Part shown: piece after piece, positions 8,054-25,082 of the stretch
How the letters are laid out: each line of letters opens with the position of its first letter
Numbering within the stretch: the stretch's first letter is position 1
DNA from: a virus
Strand: one strand, 5' to 3'
DNA: 27,621 bases
Virus record (IMG/VR): IMGVR_UViG_3300009093_000110
Coordinates: 1-27,621 of that record
Program-made: the position numbers and the translations under genes
The notes under the pieces: model-generated
The model's database searches: none
What the model was told of the DNA's origin: nothing
The model's input: only the letters and a program-made list of their open reading frames with translations

Positions 8054-8578
8054 ATGGCTGAAATCGATTATAGCGATGATATTGCCGTCGTCATCCCATT
8101 CGCTCCAAGTTATTCTATCACACCCAGCGGGGTCATAACGCGGATCAAGGGAAGCCGCACTTACCCGGCTGGCTATGTGCTGAAACCTAGTAGATTTACG
8201 CGCACGCCCTACAAGAGGGTTGTAATTGTGACGGTCGATGGCCCGCAGACTTGGCAGTTGCATCGCCTGCTGGCTTATGTTTTCCATGGGCCGCCTCCCG
8301 CCGGCAAAGAACTTGCTTGCCACATCGATGGAGATGCGGAGCATAATCACGCGCGCAACATACGTTGGGGAAGCCCATCGGATAATATGCTCGACAAGGT
8401 CGCCCATGGTAATTCTGGTAAAGGCGCGGCAAATCCACGAGCCATCCTGTCCGCTGAGACTGTGGTCATGATTCGGAAGCTGCCTTATCGCAGAGGGATG
8501 ATGACGCGGCTTGCGGTTAAATATGGCGTCACAAAATCCACCATAAGTAAGCTCTATCGCGGAGACACTTGGAGTTAA
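8054..8578 (+). CDS. Free-standing HNH homing endonuclease
   Basis: This 174-residue protein has three parts. The N-terminus (residues 18-45, YSITPSGVITRIKG) resembles NUMOD4-type DNA-binding modules. An HNH_3 core follows, with LHRLLAYVFHG at 69-79, His90 in CHIDG, Asn98 and Asn102 before IRWG. The C-terminal helix-turn-helix (LAVKYGVTKSTISKLYRG, about 153-170) probably contacts the target. It is the only plus-strand gene in the left arm, placed between the terminase and portal genes; its stop overlaps the terminase stop by 3 bp. AAGGAA lies 7 bp before the ATG. Its likely role is self-spread by cutting phages that lack the insertion. Confidence 0.85.
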   Translation: MAEIDYSDDIAVVIPFAPSYSITPSGVITRIKGSRTYPAGYVLKPSRFTRTPYKRVVIVTVDGPQTWQLHRLLAYVFHGPPPAGKELACHIDGDAEHNHARNIRWGSPSDNMLDKVAHGNSGKGAANPRAILSAETVVMIRKLPYRRGMMTRLAVKYGVTKSTISKLYRGDTWS

Positions 8579-10047
8579 GCAGCCCATGATGTACTAGCCC
8601 CGTTTGACATCCTCAAACGAGCACGTTCATACCTATCGGTAGCTCGTTCGATGACCGCAGGCGTCACTGCGAAAGTTGCAACAAAGGCGTCCGCTAGATC
8701 TGGACTTCTACCGAGGCGGTCCTTGGTCTCCTGTTTTGCCTCAAGCTTGATCAGGCCGTTGGAGTTGTATCCGTAGAGGATGTCGGCAAGTTCGCTCGTC
8801 AGGGCGTCGTCGTTGATCTGGCAATCTCTAGCCTCAAACCACATTCGCGCCTTCCAGAATAGCTCATCTCGCAGCTTAGCGTACTTACCGTCGATAGAGG
8901 GTCGCTCGGAGACGTTGAGCATCGTCACCGGCAATCCGAGTTCGCGCATACGATCTGCGACACCCGACCCGATTCCGATAGTGTCCACCACAATGTGACT
9001 TGGCAGCTCATCTCTCGGCGTATCCTCATAGATCGCCAGCACGCGCCCCGCCGTCTGCATCGTATCGAGCCCGCGCCACGCCGTCACCGGCTCCATCAGC
9101 ACGCGGCCACGGCGTTTGGCCAATGCCGTGCGATCATCGCCGAAACGTGCGGGATCAAGGCCCCAGATTGGCTTGACCTGATTGATCGTCTCTTTTGGGA
9201 CGACGCGCTTTGCCGCCTCTTCCATCAACGCCAACGGAATAAGCGTGTTGCTGTCGACCTCGGGAAATTCGCCCAGCACATTGACCTTGACGTGATCGGA
9301 GGAGAGCCCCCAATCGTCGATCATGTCCTGGATCTGCTTCTGGTTGGCGGCCTTGGCGCGGCGGGTATCGACCGTCATCGTCAGCCAGCGGTGGCGGAAA
9401 CGGGTGAAGATCTGGTAGAAGTACGATGCTTTGTGGATCGGGTTGCCAAAGGTGAACACGAAGCTGTCGGGATCGGTGTTCGTGGCCTCAGCTACGGAGA
9501 AGATGGTCTCGGGAACGCCCGAGCCTTCATCGATGATCGTGCATTGCCCGCGCCCGCCATTGTGCAAGCCGCCAAAGGCATCGGGCTTATGCTCCGACCA
9601 CTTTTGAGCAACGACCTTCCACGTGTCGGGCTGCTCGACGTGGACGAACTTGGTTGCAGTCCATTCGAACCAATGCTTGTTCAATGCCCGAGCATGCCAC
9701 AGCGCCAGTTCACGCCAGGTCTTGCCGTCGAGCTGATCGCCTGTGTTGGCGGTGACGACGCCCGAGAAGTTCGGCCGCGTGCTCATGAGGAAAAGCACCA
9801 GCCACGCGATGACGGCGCTCTTGCCCGGCCCACGACCGGATTTGACCGCCATCTTGATGACATCGCCACCGGAGCGTGTTTTGATGGCCTCGCCTAGAAC
9901 GGACAGGAACTCAGTCTGCCATTCATCTGGACCATCCCAGCCCTCAAGCTCACCCTCGCCCCATTCGAAAATGTAGCGCACGAACGACAGCGGATCAGCG
10001 TACATCGCGCCGAGATCGTGACAGAGGATTTCGTCAGCCTCAGTCAT
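8575..10047 (-). CDS. terL: Terminase large subunit
   Basis: This 490-residue DNA-packaging motor has both expected domains. The ATPase part shows Walker A SGRGPGKS (residues 70-77) and Walker B TIIDE (170-174), followed by GNPIHKASYF. The RNase H-like nuclease part begins around residue 295 with GLDPARFGDDRTAL, whose Asp298 is a likely metal ligand. It continues through VVDTIGIGSGVADRM to a late acidic site in SPDLADAFVATF. The length is normal. Its ATG at 10047 lies 8 bp inside the end of the small-subunit gene. Confidence 0.93.
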   Translation of the reverse strand: MTEADEILCHDLGAMYADPLSFVRYIFEWGEGELEGWDGPDEWQTEFLSVLGEAIKTRSGGDVIKMAVKSGRGPGKSAVIAWLVLFLMSTRPNFSGVVTANTGDQLDGKTWRELALWHARALNKHWFEWTATKFVHVEQPDTWKVVAQKWSEHKPDAFGGLHNGGRGQCTIIDEGSGVPETIFSVAEATNTDPDSFVFTFGNPIHKASYFYQIFTRFRHRWLTMTVDTRRAKAANQKQIQDMIDDWGLSSDHVKVNVLGEFPEVDSNTLIPLALMEEAAKRVVPKETINQVKPIWGLDPARFGDDRTALAKRRGRVLMEPVTAWRGLDTMQTAGRVLAIYEDTPRDELPSHIVVDTIGIGSGVADRMRELGLPVTMLNVSERPSIDGKYAKLRDELFWKARMWFEARDCQINDDALTSELADILYGYNSNGLIKLEAKQETKDRLGRSPDLADAFVATFAVTPAVIERATDRYERARLRMSNGASTSWAA

Positions 10048-10722: not shown

Positions 10723-10892
10723 GCTGAAGTCCTTGGCAGCGCATAGAATACCGCGCGAATGGAAACACGAAGCTCACGAGCAATCCGCGATTTGTTAACC
10801 CGCTCACCAGCCTCTCGCATTTCCATGGCGCGCTGAATCACGCGCTGGCGTTGCTGCGCTGGGCGGCCGCGTGTGATGTGCTTCAAGTTCAT
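10719..10892 (-). CDS. Small HTH protein
   Basis: This 57-residue basic protein opens MNLKHITRGRPAQQRQRVI and has a likely helix-turn-helix at about 31-50 (RVNKSRIARELRVSIRAVFY), similar in shape to resolvase/invertase C-terminal HTHs. It overlaps both neighbours by 4 bp (ATGA upstream, GTGA downstream). It could be a late-gene activator or a packaging DNA-binding protein, since it lies just before the terminase genes. The role is inferred only. Confidence 0.7.
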   Translation of the reverse strand: MNLKHITRGRPAQQRQRVIQRAMEMREAGERVNKSRIARELRVSIRAVFYALPRTSA

Positions 10893-11140
10893 TTCCCCTC
10901 CCCTTCCCTCAGGACATGGTCGATGTGAGCGCGGATAACTTTTGCCGCCGCCGTCGGGCCTATCCAGAAGTCGCCCTGCAATGCTTCTGAGACGGCGATG
11001 GTCATCCCCTCGTCCACTTGCTTCAGCTCGTTCAGGATGGCGCGGACGACGCGCTCACAATCCTGCCGAGTTGGACCGACGTCGTCAGCTATCGCTCTGA
11101 CACATTTTTCCAGCATCGTGGTGTCTCTGTGGGTCGTCAT
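10889..11140 (-). CDS. Hypothetical phage protein
   Basis: This 83-residue protein (MTTHRDTTMLEKCVRAIADD...) has no recognised domain. It has two amphipathic helical stretches (CERVVRAILNELKQV and AAAKVIRAHIDHVLRE) separated by GDFWIGP. The ATG at 11140 is chosen because it overlaps the stop of the 30-residue gene upstream as ATGA. A longer TTG-started form from 11173 is less likely. Confidence 0.65.
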   Translation of the reverse strand: MTTHRDTTMLEKCVRAIADDVGPTRQDCERVVRAILNELKQVDEGMTIAVSEALQGDFWIGPTAAAKVIRAHIDHVLREGEGK

Positions 11141-11229
11141 GACAGCAGCGCCGCGATGGAAAAGGCTATGCAAATCGCCAGCAGCGAAGCCGCCACAATT
11201 TTGGTGATGTCCCTCTCGTTCTCCATCAT
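11137..11229 (-). CDS. 30-residue single-pass membrane peptide
   Basis: The frame encodes a charged head (MMENERDITK) followed by one hydrophobic helix (IVAASLLAICIAFSIAALLS) that ends the protein. AAGGA lies 5-6 bp before the first ATG, and the stop overlaps the next start as ATGA. Both signals are hard to get by chance in a random short frame. The function is unknown; a holin/antiholin-like or envelope-sensing peptide is possible. Confidence 0.55.
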   Translation of the reverse strand: MMENERDITKIVAASLLAICIAFSIAALLS

Positions 11230-11267
11230 CTCATTCCTTCTGCTTGCGGGGTTGGGGCGAGGATGGG

Positions 11268-11554
11268 CGTAACATCGGGGTTCCCCCTAAAGGGGGAAAC
11301 CCCCGACGACGTTACGCTGCCACCCTTTTCCTGGAAAACCGTAACATCGATGTTACGCCGCCATGTTACGGATGTTACGCAATCCATATCTCTTCTCCTT
11401 GACCATGTATTTTCCCTTTATTCTCAAGAGCTTTTCTGATTCTCCAGAACTGCATACGCGCGGTTTCGCTGTTGTTACGGTCTGTTACGCCAGTGGCCTG
11501 GAGGCGTGTTTTCCAATGATCGAGCGGCGCAGCCGTAACATCTCCCGTAACAGT
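11268..11554. repeat. GATGTTACG repeat cluster, candidate replication origin
   Basis: Ten copies of a 9-bp motif related to GATGTTACG occur in 287 bp. Forward copies start at 11308, 11349, 11362, 11371, 11471 and 11481. Reverse copies (CGTAAC...) start at 11268, 11340, 11534 and 11546. The copies at 11340 and 11349 form a perfect 18-bp palindrome, and those at 11362 and 11371 are direct tandem neighbours. The cluster spans the 3' end of the primase-helicase gene and the gap after it, next to a strong hairpin and an AT-richer stretch (11380-11445). This layout resembles iteron origins such as the one inside lambda O. Origin function is inference. Confidence 0.6.
11277..11304. repeat. Strong GC hairpin downstream of the helicase gene
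   Basis: GGGGTTCCCCC and GGGGGAAACCCC pair around a TAAA loop with one bulged A. This gives about 11 paired bases immediately beside the 9-bp repeats. No U run follows on the leftward strand, so a plain terminator is not well supported. It could be an origin hairpin or an mRNA 3'-end structure. Confidence 0.5.
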
Positions 11555-13357
11555 GGTTTTTGGGTAGCCAACAAGCCCCAAAACCTCTTCGAGACAGGCC
11601 AGGGCATCAGCCTCTTTTGGGGATAGGGAGGAGGTGTTTCGGGCTATCACTGAGGCGCCTTCAGCGTCGATCACGACGCAGGAGGTGACTTCACGCTCCC
11701 TTCTGTTGAGGCCCAGGGAGACACTTTTTAGGGTAAAATTAAACGGGTCTCCGGCTTCGAGGTCGCGTTGCTTTGCGACCCGCACGGATGAAAATGTTAG
11801 CTCGGGGTCTCTCCTAATTTCAATCTCCGTGTCCGTGGCAGCCCTCAAGGAAGAGTGACCCCTTGCCCCTCTGGCCTCGTCCTTGCCGGAATGGTGAATG
11901 ATACAGACATGAGAGCCGGTGGCGGCTCTGATCCTGTCACAATTCCCGATCAGTGCCGTCATGTCTTCGGAGGAGTTCTCGTTTCCCCCGGCCATAGCGC
12001 GGGAGAGGGTGTCAATAATCACCATGCGAACGGGCAGGCCTGTTTCCTCCTCCACATGCTGCACCAACTGAATAACAGCCATCAGGTCCGCCTGATCATT
12101 GAGGAGGTTGATGGGCTTGGGCATTGCGACAAAGGGAAGAGAAGAGATGTCATGATGCTTCCGGAAGGCCGCAATGCGGTTCCTGATGCCCAGAGCGCCT
12201 TCTAGAGACAAATAAACGATTGCCCCTTGGTCGACGGATCGGCCTCTCCATTCACGTCCCCACGCGACGTGCAGCGCCAAATCCAGAATGAAGAAGGTCT
12301 TCCCGCAGTTTGATGGGCCGTACACAACGGACATGGCAGCGGAGGTTAAAAGTCCCTCAACAAAATCATTCGCTTCGAGTGAGGGTGTGGCGTCGTCGAA
12401 CCAGAAGAACGGCAAGGCAGGGGCAGGCGCGGACGTTTCTCCTTTGAGGAGCACATCTATTTGTTCTTGGGAGGCGTCCGCTGCGTCCCATCCGGAAGGC
12501 AAGCCATCGGGCAAATTTATTAACGAAACTGATGAACAGACGTCCTTTAAGAACGTGGTTAATGAGGTGGCGAAATGAAAACCTGGCTCATCGGCATCAG
12601 GCCATATCACCACGTCTTTACGTGAGAGAGGCGATAAATCTGTCTTGTCGAGGGGGGAGTTGGATCCCCCCATAACAGCCGTGGCACACACTCCTCTATC
12701 GATCAGGGATTTGGCAGCCTTTTCTCCCTCACAGAAGATCACCCGGTCGCTTTGTAGTATGCCGGGGATGTTATAGAGGGGGCGAACATCAGGGTTCCCA
12801 TAACGTCTCTTTACCGCGTCCCAGGGCAGAAACTCCTTACCGCCACCATCGGGCTCGAAGCGATAAACAGAAGCAATAATGCTGCCTTCCGCATCCGTAT
12901 AGTGCCACTCGCCTTTTTGCGGGCCAAGATCCCGTTCAAACTTTTTGGCTTTGGCTAATAGTTGCTGGCGGCTGTACACCACCTCCGGCCGGGTGCCTTG
13001 CCCCAGCCATTCAGCGCATTCTGACAGTGCGACGTGGAAGGAAACTCTGCGGTTGGCCTGATAGAGGGCTATAAGATCCCCGCCCTTTTGTGCTGGGTCC
13101 CCAAAGTCTTTCCAGATGCCGGCCTTTGAGCCAGACGTCTCTATCAGGAGGCTTCCGCCTGGATCGCCGTCTGTGTTGCCAATGCGGGCTTGGGTGCGAG
13201 AAAAGATTGCCGATGGGAAAAGCCATGCCACGAAGTGCGCTGCGTTGGCAGCAAGCCCGTCCCTTACAGTTTCGATGCGGGGCGCCTCCCCCTGATCACG
13301 ACCCAGATAGGTTTCGAGTTGCTTGGCCGTAAATGCCTGGTTGAAATCCAATATCAT
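11375..13357 (-). CDS. TOPRIM primase-like / RepA-type helicase fusion
   Basis: This 660-residue protein probably drives phage DNA replication. The N-terminal part (residues 50-100, GGSLLIETSG then GIWKDFGDPAQKGGD) resembles primase-type domains that precede TOPRIM. The TOPRIM core shows CEGEKAAKS (209-217) and DADEPG (254-259). A RecA-like helicase follows, with Walker A GPSNCGKT (347-354), Walker B MVIIDT (445-450) and IIHHSGKDEARGARG, as in RepA helicases. The end (WRIRKALENKGKI) may be a winged helix. The ATG at 13357 overlaps the preceding stop as ATGA. A cluster of 9-bp repeats lies in its 3' end. Confidence 0.88.
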   Translation of the reverse strand: MILDFNQAFTAKQLETYLGRDQGEAPRIETVRDGLAANAAHFVAWLFPSAIFSRTQARIGNTDGDPGGSLLIETSGSKAGIWKDFGDPAQKGGDLIALYQANRRVSFHVALSECAEWLGQGTRPEVVYSRQQLLAKAKKFERDLGPQKGEWHYTDAEGSIIASVYRFEPDGGGKEFLPWDAVKRRYGNPDVRPLYNIPGILQSDRVIFCEGEKAAKSLIDRGVCATAVMGGSNSPLDKTDLSPLSRKDVVIWPDADEPGFHFATSLTTFLKDVCSSVSLINLPDGLPSGWDAADASQEQIDVLLKGETSAPAPALPFFWFDDATPSLEANDFVEGLLTSAAMSVVYGPSNCGKTFFILDLALHVAWGREWRGRSVDQGAIVYLSLEGALGIRNRIAAFRKHHDISSLPFVAMPKPINLLNDQADLMAVIQLVQHVEEETGLPVRMVIIDTLSRAMAGGNENSSEDMTALIGNCDRIRAATGSHVCIIHHSGKDEARGARGHSSLRAATDTEIEIRRDPELTFSSVRVAKQRDLEAGDPFNFTLKSVSLGLNRREREVTSCVVIDAEGASVIARNTSSLSPKEADALACLEEVLGLVGYPKTTVTGDVTAAPLDHWKTRLQATGVTDRNNSETARMQFWRIRKALENKGKIHGQGEEIWIA

Positions 13358-14070
13358 GCCCAGCACTCCGCTGAGTGGGGGCACCATTTGCATTCAAAGA
13401 AGGAGGAAGACGCATAAGCGCGTGGAAGCCACTCACCGGCATCGCAGGCCTTGAGGATTGCCACCCCTTTGTCGGATAGGTTTTGAGCAAGCTGGGGATT
13501 GAATGGCACTCGTTCGAATGCAACCTCTCCCGTATCCCGATTACCGATTGAGAGTAGCGCCGGATTTTCCGTCAGCTCCATATAGGCTTGGTAAATGGCA
13601 ATCTGGCCGGCATAGACTGGGCGCTCAACGGCAACGCCCTTTTTTACGATTGCATTCCAATACTTGGCGCCGACCCATTTTGATTCCCATAGGTACGGGA
13701 ATGGCCCCATTTCGGCCGAGCCCCCACAAATCACCCCATCAATGTGGCCGCGTATGCGTCCCCCGGCCACTGAGAAGCCAAATTGCAGCCCATCCTTCCC
13801 ATGGGTTCGCAGATCAAAACCAACCCCTTTTAAAAGCTCAGCAACGCTAGCCTCGCCCGCATGACCGATTGCAAAGATGTTGTGGGTTGAAGCCCCAAAA
13901 GGAGAAGGCCTCCCCAGGAACTCATACTGGAGTTTGCGGGCACACGGCTCCCCCAAGCGAGAGCCCCCAAGATAGTCACGCGGCGCGGATGGTCGGACAG
14001 CCGCATCTAGCATTGCGGTGGTAGGGATTGCCGCCTTGCTCTTTAAAGCGCCATGATTGAAATCGATCAT
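13354..14070 (-). CDS. Cas4/RecB-like PD-(D/E)XK nuclease with Fe-S cysteines
   Basis: This 238-residue protein carries all marks of the RecB/Cas4 exonuclease family. Cys43 precedes a conserved helix, His70 is in GHAGE, Asp111 in HIDG, Glu129-x-Lys131 in WESKW and the QxxxY motif is Gln156...Tyr160. A C-terminal Cys227-x2-Cys230-x5-Cys236 can complete a four-cysteine 4Fe-4S site with Cys43. It probably resects DNA ends during phage recombination or replication. No other cas genes or repeats are near. The start at 14070 overlaps the preceding stop as ATGA. Confidence 0.82.
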   Translation of the reverse strand: MIDFNHGALKSKAAIPTTAMLDAAVRPSAPRDYLGGSRLGEPCARKLQYEFLGRPSPFGASTHNIFAIGHAGEASVAELLKGVGFDLRTHGKDGLQFGFSVAGGRIRGHIDGVICGGSAEMGPFPYLWESKWVGAKYWNAIVKKGVAVERPVYAGQIAIYQAYMELTENPALLSIGNRDTGEVAFERVPFNPQLAQNLSDKGVAILKACDAGEWLPRAYASSSFFECKWCPHSAECWA

Positions 14071-18278: not shown

Positions 18279-18506
18279 TCACGCCGCTATCGCCTGCGAA
18301 AGATACAGAACAGCATCCGAAGGAAGTTCGATGTTGAGGCGGCGGGCCGTTGCCAGCACGAGCGACCTGCGCCACTCGGGTATGTTCGGCTTGCCGTTGC
18401 GAGCGTTCTTCCAGCTATCGACGGTCGAGATACTGAGGCCAGTGGCTTGCGCCAGCTTGGTCTGCCCCCCGAACGCCGTGAAGATTTGAGCGATGATTTC
18501 GTCCAT
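18279..18506 (-). CDS. Cro-like transcription regulator
   Basis: This 75-residue protein begins MDEIIAQIFTAFGG and contains a clear helix-turn-helix (TKLAQATGLSISTVDSWKN, about 16-34), as in Cro and YdaS-type proteins. It is transcribed leftward, divergent from the S24 repressor gene. An inverted repeat and promoter lie directly before the ATG, and the predicted transcript start falls at or within 3 bp of it, so the message may be leaderless. A longer start at 18542 would include the operator and is unlikely. It probably competes with the repressor for the same sites in the lytic switch. Confidence 0.82.
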   Translation of the reverse strand: MDEIIAQIFTAFGGQTKLAQATGLSISTVDSWKNARNGKPNIPEWRRSLVLATARRLNIELPSDAVLYLSQAIAA

Positions 18507-18515
18507 ACAGCGCAC

Positions 18516-18543
18516 ATTATCCGAAAAGCGGATAACATGCAAG
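18516..18543 (-). promoter_or_regulatory. Leftward early promoter with operator O1 in it
   Basis: On the minus strand, CTTGCA (18543-18538) and GATAAT (18521-18516) are separated by 16 bp. The perfect inverted repeat TTATCCG-AAAAG-CGGATAA (18517-18535) covers the -10 and most of the spacer. Binding there should block leftward transcription. The next bases lead almost directly to the Cro-like ATG at 18506. A lone half site TTATCCG is at 18552-18558. Confidence 0.7.
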
Positions 18544-18603
18544 AGGGGGAATTATCCGATTTCACAGACTGATCGTTACGGCGCCTATCCGTTAAAAAGC
18601 GGC

Positions 18604-19191
18604 ATGAGCGATTCGGCGTACGATCCGGCCTATTGGGAGCGCGTAAAGGCGCGCATGAAGGAGCTGGGCGTCTCCCAAACCGACATGGCACGGGCGCTTG
18701 GGCTGCCAGCACAGTCTGCTTTTTCAAATCTCACGAAAGGCCGGCGCGAGCTAAAAGCCCATGAGAAGGCCGAACTAGATAGTTACCTGGGGCTTGACGA
18801 AGAATCTAATGTATTTTTCGTCCCCATTATTGGCTTGACGAACGCCGGCAACTGGCGAGAAGCTGTCGAAATGCCGATAGGTCACACACCAGTGATGCGC
18901 GGCGTGGCGGGGCGAAGGGCTTTTGCTGTCGAGATAAAAGGCGACAGCATGAACAAGGTTGTGCAGGACGGTGGCTATGTTGTCATCGATCCTGACAAAA
19001 CGACCCTCTACGATGGCAGCATCTATCTTATCGCGAACGGCGACGGCGAAACCACGCTGAAATGCTACCGGTCGAACCCGGCCCGCTTCTGCCCGGCGTC
19101 ATCCAATCCCGAACATACTGACCTGATCCTTGGCGAGCACGAATTTCGCGTTATCGGCAAGGCAGTTACGGCGATACAGAACCTCCCGTAA
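18604..19191 (+). CDS. CI/LexA-type repressor, S24 peptidase family
   Basis: This 195-residue prophage repressor has an N-terminal HTH (SQTDMARALGLPAQSAFSNLTKG, about 24-46) and a C-terminal LexA-like autoprotease. The Ala81-Gly82 pair in LTNAGNW fits the cleavage site, Ser115 in KGDSM is the nucleophile and Lys153 in TTLKCYR the general base. All key residues are present, so RecA-stimulated self-cleavage and SOS induction are likely. The ATG at 18604 gives a standard-size protein; an earlier one at 18493 would cross the operator. The ribosome site is weak. It sits between the two operator regions it presumably controls. Confidence 0.88.
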   Translation: MSDSAYDPAYWERVKARMKELGVSQTDMARALGLPAQSAFSNLTKGRRELKAHEKAELDSYLGLDEESNVFFVPIIGLTNAGNWREAVEMPIGHTPVMRGVAGRRAFAVEIKGDSMNKVVQDGGYVVIDPDKTTLYDGSIYLIANGDGETTLKCYRSNPARFCPASSNPEHTDLILGEHEFRVIGKAVTAIQNLP

Positions 19192-24218: not shown

Positions 24219-25082
24219 ATGTCGGGAAAACCAGATGTCTGGAACCATGACGCTCTGGCCGTCGACTTGGCGCGCAAGCTCATGCACGACGGCAAGGTTT
24301 GGTGCTGGCTGAACTCGACGATCGGAGCCTGGTCTGGACCTCGCCCTGATGTCATGACCTATCGGCGCTATACCTACGACAATCCGCAGATCCACGCCTA
24401 TGAAATCAAGGTCAGCCGCAGCGATCTCGCCAGCGACCTCAACAGCGACAAGTGGCGGAAATATCTGGAGCACTGCCAGTCAGTGACATTCGCCATGCCC
24501 TCGGGCCTCTGCCACAAAGATGAGATCCCCCGTGAATGCGGTGTCATGTTCAGAACCGGCCGAGGCTGGCGCGTCGAGCGGAGGCCGCACAATATCGGTA
24601 GCGGCTGTTCCATTCAATCGATGGCGAAGTTGTTGACGGAGCACCCACTGCGGTTGGCACCGCCTGATGGGAAATACCTATCCGATTGGCAGCGCGACGG
24701 ACTGTCCAGGCTTGCCGGTGATAAATTCCAGCGGGGCGCCGGAGAGCGTTACGGGCACGCCCTAGCGAGACTGGCTCGCGATGTTGCCGACGGCGTCGAT
24801 CCCGCTGGCAAGGCAAAGGAACAGGCGGATAAGATCATTGCCGACGCCAAAGCTGAGGCCGAGAGCATTATCGGCTGGCTCGCGCCTGCCTGCGAGGCCG
24901 TTGGCATAAAGCTTGACCGTAACAGCCTGTGGGGCCTCAGGACCGACTTGGCTGCGCGCGTCCGCGCCCTCGACACCGACGCCCGTTGTAGATCGGCAAC
25001 GGTCGCCCTTGAGGCGGCAAGGCGGGAGATCGACCGCGCTCTGAAGAATGTGCCGAGCGACGAACAGCTTGACGCAGCATGA
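24219..25082 (+). CDS. MmcB-like PD-(D/E)XK protein with helical extension
   Basis: This 287-residue protein has an N-terminal nuclease-like domain (1-120) with Asp44 (GPRPDVMT), Glu62-x-Lys64 (AYEIKVSRSDL) and HCQSVTFAMPSGL, similar to MmcB-type DNA repair nucleases. The C-terminal ~150 residues are helical (AKEQADKIIADAKAEAESI) and unassigned. An AGGAGG site lies 6 bp before the ATG. It is the first gene on the far side of attP. The likely target is DNA, but no substrate can be stated. Confidence 0.75.
   Translation: MSGKPDVWNHDALAVDLARKLMHDGKVWCWLNSTIGAWSGPRPDVMTYRRYTYDNPQIHAYEIKVSRSDLASDLNSDKWRKYLEHCQSVTFAMPSGLCHKDEIPRECGVMFRTGRGWRVERRPHNIGSGCSIQSMAKLLTEHPLRLAPPDGKYLSDWQRDGLSRLAGDKFQRGAGERYGHALARLARDVADGVDPAGKAKEQADKIIADAKAEAESIIGWLAPACEAVGIKLDRNSLWGLRTDLAARVRALDTDARCRSATVALEAARREIDRALKNVPSDEQLDAA

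Follow-up and report, generated by a model that had tools for sequence, protein, structure and literature searches.

A candidate phage replication origin whose iterons, at the 3' end of a primase-helicase gene, covary with the helicase C-terminus

The alpha protein of phage P4 contains a superfamily 3 (SF3) helicase, and the repeats of P4 ori and crr are 8-bp sequences of the TGTTCACC type. Primase, helicase and a C-terminal winged-helix DNA-binding domain that reads short origin repeats are combined in this single protein (PMC4234260). Primase-helicase-winged-helix proteins are also found in plasmid pRN1 and in replicons of the Bordetella phage BPP-1 type, with a proposed origin just 3' of the gene, and the RSF1010 origin, which is served by RepA, RepB' and RepC, has iterons adjoining the stem-loops used for priming (PMC4234260). 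For SaPI Rep and SCCmec Cch2, a short-iteron origin immediately follows the helicase gene on its 3' side and is bound by the C-terminal domain of the helicase (PMC7581432). In the PLE satellites of Vibrio cholerae, the DNA-binding domain of RepA and the origin covary, and a nuclease directed at the origin selects for swaps of the two as a module (PMC8263062). Geminiviruses conserve the positions of their iterons, the sequences of which are highly diverse and matched to the cognate Rep (PMC12548392).

We analysed a 27,621-nt stretch of viral DNA (the window) in which a repeat array lies at the 3' end of a primase-helicase gene. The layout is common to P4 alpha, SaPI Rep, PLE RepA and RSF1010; here it comes with a different protein fusion and a hypervariable specificity. 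As in P4 alpha, primase, helicase and a predicted C-terminal winged helix occur in one protein (the Toprim match narrowly misses the Pfam cut-off), but the motor is of the RepA/AAA_25 RecA type rather than SF3. SaPI Rep and SCCmec Cch2 likewise have 3' iterons and a helicase C-terminal reader, the role proposed here; they differ in helicase class, in their separate primase and in belonging to satellites or cassettes rather than a tailed phage, and the motif-residue covariation found here is not reported in the available part of that work (PMC7581432). PLE RepA resembles the present system in that reader domain and origin covary and are exchanged as a module, but it has an N-terminal RepA_N domain, iterons of ~30 bp, no fused helicase or primase, and two module types against dozens here.

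RSF1010 has a RecA-like ATPase of the RepA family, as does the window (AAA_25, 1g8y match), but distributes the functions over three separate proteins and separate ssi hairpins, whereas here reader, motor and primase are fused and there is one central palindrome. In place of a separate RepC-like iteron binder and RepB'-like primase, we find that the C-terminus of the fused protein itself covaries with the motif. pRN1 and BPP-1 share both the primase-helicase-winged-helix fusion and a proposed origin 3' of its gene, but their helicase is of the SF3 class and their large stem-loop is not accompanied by iterons. Geminiviruses show the same fixed iteron positions, diverse sequences and matched reader, but are rolling-circle plant viruses with an unrelated Rep protein. 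The preliminary description of this DNA had taken lambda, with its iterons inside O, as its model. An iteron origin partnered by a helicase remains the favoured reading, but the iterons do not lie within a separate O gene with DnaB engaged via P: the helicase would itself read the array, half of which lies beyond the gene, and P4 alpha, SaPI Rep, PLE RepA and RSF1010 are closer models.

The iteron array and primase-helicase of the window

The sequence TGTTACG/CGTAACA occurs in 10 exact copies in the window against 1.30 ± 1.11 in shuffled sequences, none of 100 shuffles reaching 10. Nine of the ten lie within 11268–11552, and the single remaining copy in the other 27 kb is at 24918. Together with one variant, the nine make up the ten clustered copies, in both orientations, that had been described before. 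An inverted iteron lies beyond the hairpin at 11268–11274 (minus strand), followed by the variant CGTTACG at 11310–11316 (plus strand), which a mismatch-tolerant count finds within a one-mismatch copy spanning 11308–11316; the others come from the exact motif count. The iterons at 11340–11346 (minus) and 11351–11357 (plus) are the left and right halves of the 18-bp palindrome CGTAACATCGATGTTACG (11340–11357), and those at 11364–11370 and 11373–11379 (both plus) fall in the tandem pair at 11362–11379. The latter overlaps the helicase stop codon, which it supplies as CG-TAA-CA on the coding strand; the other non-coding copies lie in the gap after the gene. Four iterons are inside the helicase coding sequence (11473–11552), at 11473–11479 and 11483–11489 (plus) and at 11534–11540 and 11546–11552 (minus). 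Codon use was rejected as the cause of the repeats, in line with the preliminary description, because half of the copies are non-coding and relatives carry different motifs at the same place.

The hairpin, or central palindrome, CGGGGTTCCCCCTAAAGGGGGAAACCCCCG occupies 11276–11305 (unstranded), with its core TTCCCCCTAAAGGGGGAA at 11281–11298; its position and those of the 18-bp palindrome and tandem pair are as given previously. Folded as single-stranded DNA, the non-coding part of the array reaches −31 kcal/mol (z −5.3). We rejected the hairpin as a Rho-independent (intrinsic) terminator; its GC stem has no T run, and no terminator-like site was found. Rfam families gave no match in the window. 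The AT-richer stretch noted beside the array is present, but it is mild and lies in the coding part. A GC-skew switch anticipated at 11.3–11.5 kb is not clearly seen there, the window being a fragment in which skew largely follows gene direction. The window phage itself is temperate-looking with an unusual structural gene set, comprising a CI-like repressor (18493–19191), a Phage_capsid_3 head protein (302–1390) and a P22-type portal.

The primase-helicase gene (11375–13393, minus strand) encodes 672 aa, not the 660 residues first given, and the open reading frame, Pfam matches and models together describe a TOPRIM domain, a RepA-like (AAA_25) RecA-type ATPase and a C-terminal winged helix. 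The Pfam matches are AAA_25 (E 6e-40) and Toprim (E 1.7e-4, slightly short of the Pfam cut-off); a sequence search of the PDB returned RSF1010 RepA (1g8y, E 2.8e-7) as its sole match, and both the TOPRIM and the ATPase region can be made out in a full-length model of moderate confidence. About residues 592–672 (11378–11620, minus strand) are predicted by AlphaFold to form a winged helix (pLDDT 95–98), whose fold matches at Z 8–9 include CAP, a plasmid Rep–DNA complex and the winged helices of MCM and ORC, Foldseek E-values alone not being significant. This domain had no meaningful match in Pfam or, by sequence, in the PDB. The P4 alpha C-terminal structure was absent among the fold matches listed, which is uninformative either way. 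As a query against viral contigs, the window's C-terminal domain alone found no relative, and that of relative L306 found only close relatives from the same phage group. In winged-helix domains the third helix is usually the recognition helix; here it is predicted to span residues 642–658 (11420–11470, minus strand), and residue 647, a methionine (codon 11453–11455), lies near its start in the AlphaFold model.

Layout and motif among relatives

We counted arrays in 146 distinct TOPRIM/RepA-like helicase relatives with complete 3' ends, an array being at least 6 copies of any 7-bp motif starting between −400 and +60 of the helicase stop. Such arrays were found in 106 of the 146, and the same count was reached elsewhere in the locus in only 8. 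About a quarter of the relatives have no clear array by this exact 7-mer count, which undercounts degenerate arrays. The literal TGTTACG is mostly absent from relatives. Taken at first as a refutation, this absence lost its force once a search for any clustered 7-mer showed arrays in this position in almost all close relatives, each relative with an array of its own. The conservation sought in relatives thus holds for the layout and not for the literal motif. About 40 different 7-mers (counted from the listing) vary by lineage, among them CGAAACA (L012), CGTGACA (L010), CGGGACA (L006–L008, L009, L013), GGGAACA (L005), CGCAACA (L011), GGTAACC (L014) and CGTAACG (L023).

Spacing, orientation and the central palindrome are similar across phages with different motifs, and the iteron positions are nearly superposable: the register is −2, 7, 20, 31, 61, 103 in the window, −2, 8, 20, 30, 62, 103 in L010 and −2, 8, 20, 31, 61, 101 in L012. 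Many relatives have their iterons in two clusters ~100 bp apart, one coding and one non-coding. Of 75 arrays, 40 contain a CTWWAG-centred palindrome, and 31 of these have it between a forward and a reverse iteron, whereas two control stretches gave 0 of 75 each; by eye, other arrays carry TATA-type palindromes at the same spot. Average GC content is 0.48 at the helicase stop codon against about 0.58 around it. In the window, L010 and L012 the helicase stop codon is part of an iteron, which reads CG-TAA-CA or CG-TGA-CA. The other iterons of L012 are CGAAACA, but the one at the helicase stop is CGTAACA, so that the stop is kept.

Cultured phages have these arrays too. In the complete 32.6 kb genome of Roseobacter phage CRP-811, all 11 copies of CTACAAA follow the helicase, as do 11 of the 13 copies in CRP-823; CRP-831 has 10 copies of GTATAAA after its helicase, and Rhizobium phages 16-3 and X2_25 have 14 and 15 copies of CGTGACA. 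Wolbachia WO and AcaML1 have weaker arrays of five copies, and exact 7-mers revealed none in Microcystis Mae-JY30, a count by which a degenerate array would be missed. The examined stretches of these cultured phages contain no annotated origin, and the main text of the CRP paper is silent on repeats, iterons and any replication origin. Nor did we find a prior description of the arrays in the open-access papers searched, which is weak evidence of novelty.

Covariation and exchange of the helicase C-terminus and the array

Differences in motif track the C-terminal winged helix of the helicase and not its ATPase. In partial Mantel tests on 75 loci, motif and C-terminus remain correlated given the ATPase (r 0.415, p 5e-4), whereas motif and ATPase do not given the C-terminus (r 0.000, p 0.49). 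Among single columns, that of residue 647 covaries most strongly with the motif (z 13.9), ATPase columns having a mean z of 0.08. Lys or Arg occupies residue 647 in 16 of 21 cases with G at motif position 4 and in 0 of 14 with A (p 1e-5), a pair chosen after seeing the data. The association persists after identity clustering (p 0.0055 at 50% and 0.04 at 40%), p values that are optimistic because the sequences are related. All four loci fetched later (L335, L337, L338 and L339) fit the rule, as, by eye, do both modules of L009. The exceptions are 5 of the 21 with G, which have Thr, Ala or Gln; Rhizobium phages 16-3 and X2_25 have Gln at 647 with G at position 4. Judged from this covariation and the predicted fold, the most likely reader of the iterons is the last 80 residues of the same primase-helicase.

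Comparison of near-identical phages points to the same part of the protein. Relatives L305 (TGCAACA) and L306 (CGTAACA) have ~90% DNA identity on the upstream side and 93–96% just downstream, and only about 55% across roughly −300 to +150, which is the C-terminus and the array. The dip recurs in L031/L035 and L028/L061, and is absent from the same-motif pair L305/L321. Since divergence is confined to this region, the helicase C-terminus is the sole coding sequence that changes with the array; and since near-identical phages differ only across both, C-terminus and array are swapped as one module. In L009 (4983–7540), a complete helicase and its GAGACA array are followed by another copy of the C-terminus, headless and with a CGGGACA array of its own, and it looks as if one origin module had been inserted ahead of another.

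The N-terminal half varies as well. Where these halves were compared on the same motor (L306 and L269 against the window, L013 and L258), TOPRIM stood against Prim-Pol: the primase end is TOPRIM in the window and L013 and Prim-Pol in L306 and L269, and no primase domain was recognised in the N-terminal halves of L012, L010 and L023. Like the C-terminus, the primase end of the helicase is exchangeable. Separately, one Sphingomonadales genome (G022) has three related helicases (L336, L340 and L341) with two TGACAAA arrays and one AAACTGG array; exclusion of identical codes within one genome is unsupported there, two helicases sharing TGACAAA.

Origin model and alternative readings

The array at the helicase 3' end is very probably a self-contained phage replication origin. 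As in iteron origins, motif copies are clustered beside the gene of the proposed initiator, and this putative cognate initiator has a predicted DNA-binding domain matched to the motif, as judged by covariation and the predicted winged helix. The suggested partnership of an iteron origin with the helicase gains support from distant relatives, where the array follows the helicase, and from covariation with its C-terminus. From the fold and the likeness to P4 alpha, SaPI Rep and RSF1010, we infer how such an origin may fire. The C-terminal winged helix of the primase-helicase would bind the 7-bp iterons, and several helicase molecules would gather at the array. The RepA-like ring would then be loaded and unwind the DNA around the GC-armed, AT-cored central palindrome that convergent iterons flank; priming on the exposed strands would fall to the TOPRIM domain.

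That the array is instead an operator, through which the helicase C-terminus or another regulator controls the helicase operon or downstream genes, seems quite improbable. It does sit between the early operon and the next genes, and the DNA-binding domain of CAP is among the folds that the C-terminus resembles; but some ten copies in two orientations, partly coding and placed around a central palindrome, are unlike an operator, and no promoter-like site was found in 10800–11800. Genes downstream vary between relatives while the array stays with the helicase, and regulation of the downstream packaging genes, which had been raised as a second possibility, is disfavoured because these genes differ.

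We regard as very improbable that the initiator binds the array as a copy-control, incompatibility or exclusion site and not as a start site, in the manner of the second P4 site, crr. The two iteron clusters ~100 bp apart, coding and non-coding, in many relatives would suit such a site, and extra origin copies block lambda replication (PMC4488673); but there is no second array in the complete CRP-811 genome or elsewhere in the window fragment, so that the origin itself would then lack iterons. Scarcely credible is a packaging or terminase recognition site brought near the helicase by chance of gene order: TGTTACG arrays of 5–6 copies do lie directly 3' of terminase large subunit (TerL) genes in L103 (2790–3114) and L172 (12364–12639), which the origin model does not explain, but in the TOPRIM/RepA-like helicase family the array stays behind the helicase and varies in step with the helicase C-terminus, and the window's TerL (8575–10047) is more than 1.2 kb away.

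If the array is an origin, winged helix and array would constitute a single specificity cassette, exchanged and diversified between phages, probably because it is costly to have an origin code in common with a competitor, satellite or origin-directed nuclease. Origin competition is a plausible driver, since extra lambda origins block lambda and a nuclease selects PLE module swaps. We are evenly divided on the fullest form of this proposal, in which reader and origin are a hypervariable, exchangeable specificity cassette, one polypeptide acts as primase, ring helicase and origin reader, and the whole is a widespread type of origin in tailed phages and prophages that has gone unannotated, its dozens of putative codes excluding one another and evolving like an immunity or compatibility type. 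TGTTACG arrays also lie directly 3' of unrelated SF3-type DUF5906 primase-helicases (L198, 4645–4939; L114, 4431–4669) and of a primase-like fragment (L102, 559–822). Because the former are SF3-type, the plan of a helicase with 3' iterons is not limited to the RepA-like motor, and these sequences suggest that it is wider than the TOPRIM/RepA-like helicase family.

The arrays would give a sequence-only origin map for a large group of phages and prophages with an unannotated replication start, among them the cultured Roseobacter phages CRP-811, CRP-823 and CRP-831 and Rhizobium phage 16-3. They would also make up a naturally varied set in which each reader is paired with its site, suited to deriving and testing a recognition code for the winged helix. 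Finally, cassette exchange suggests that origin identity is a contested trait among phages, as has so far been shown for satellites such as PLE.
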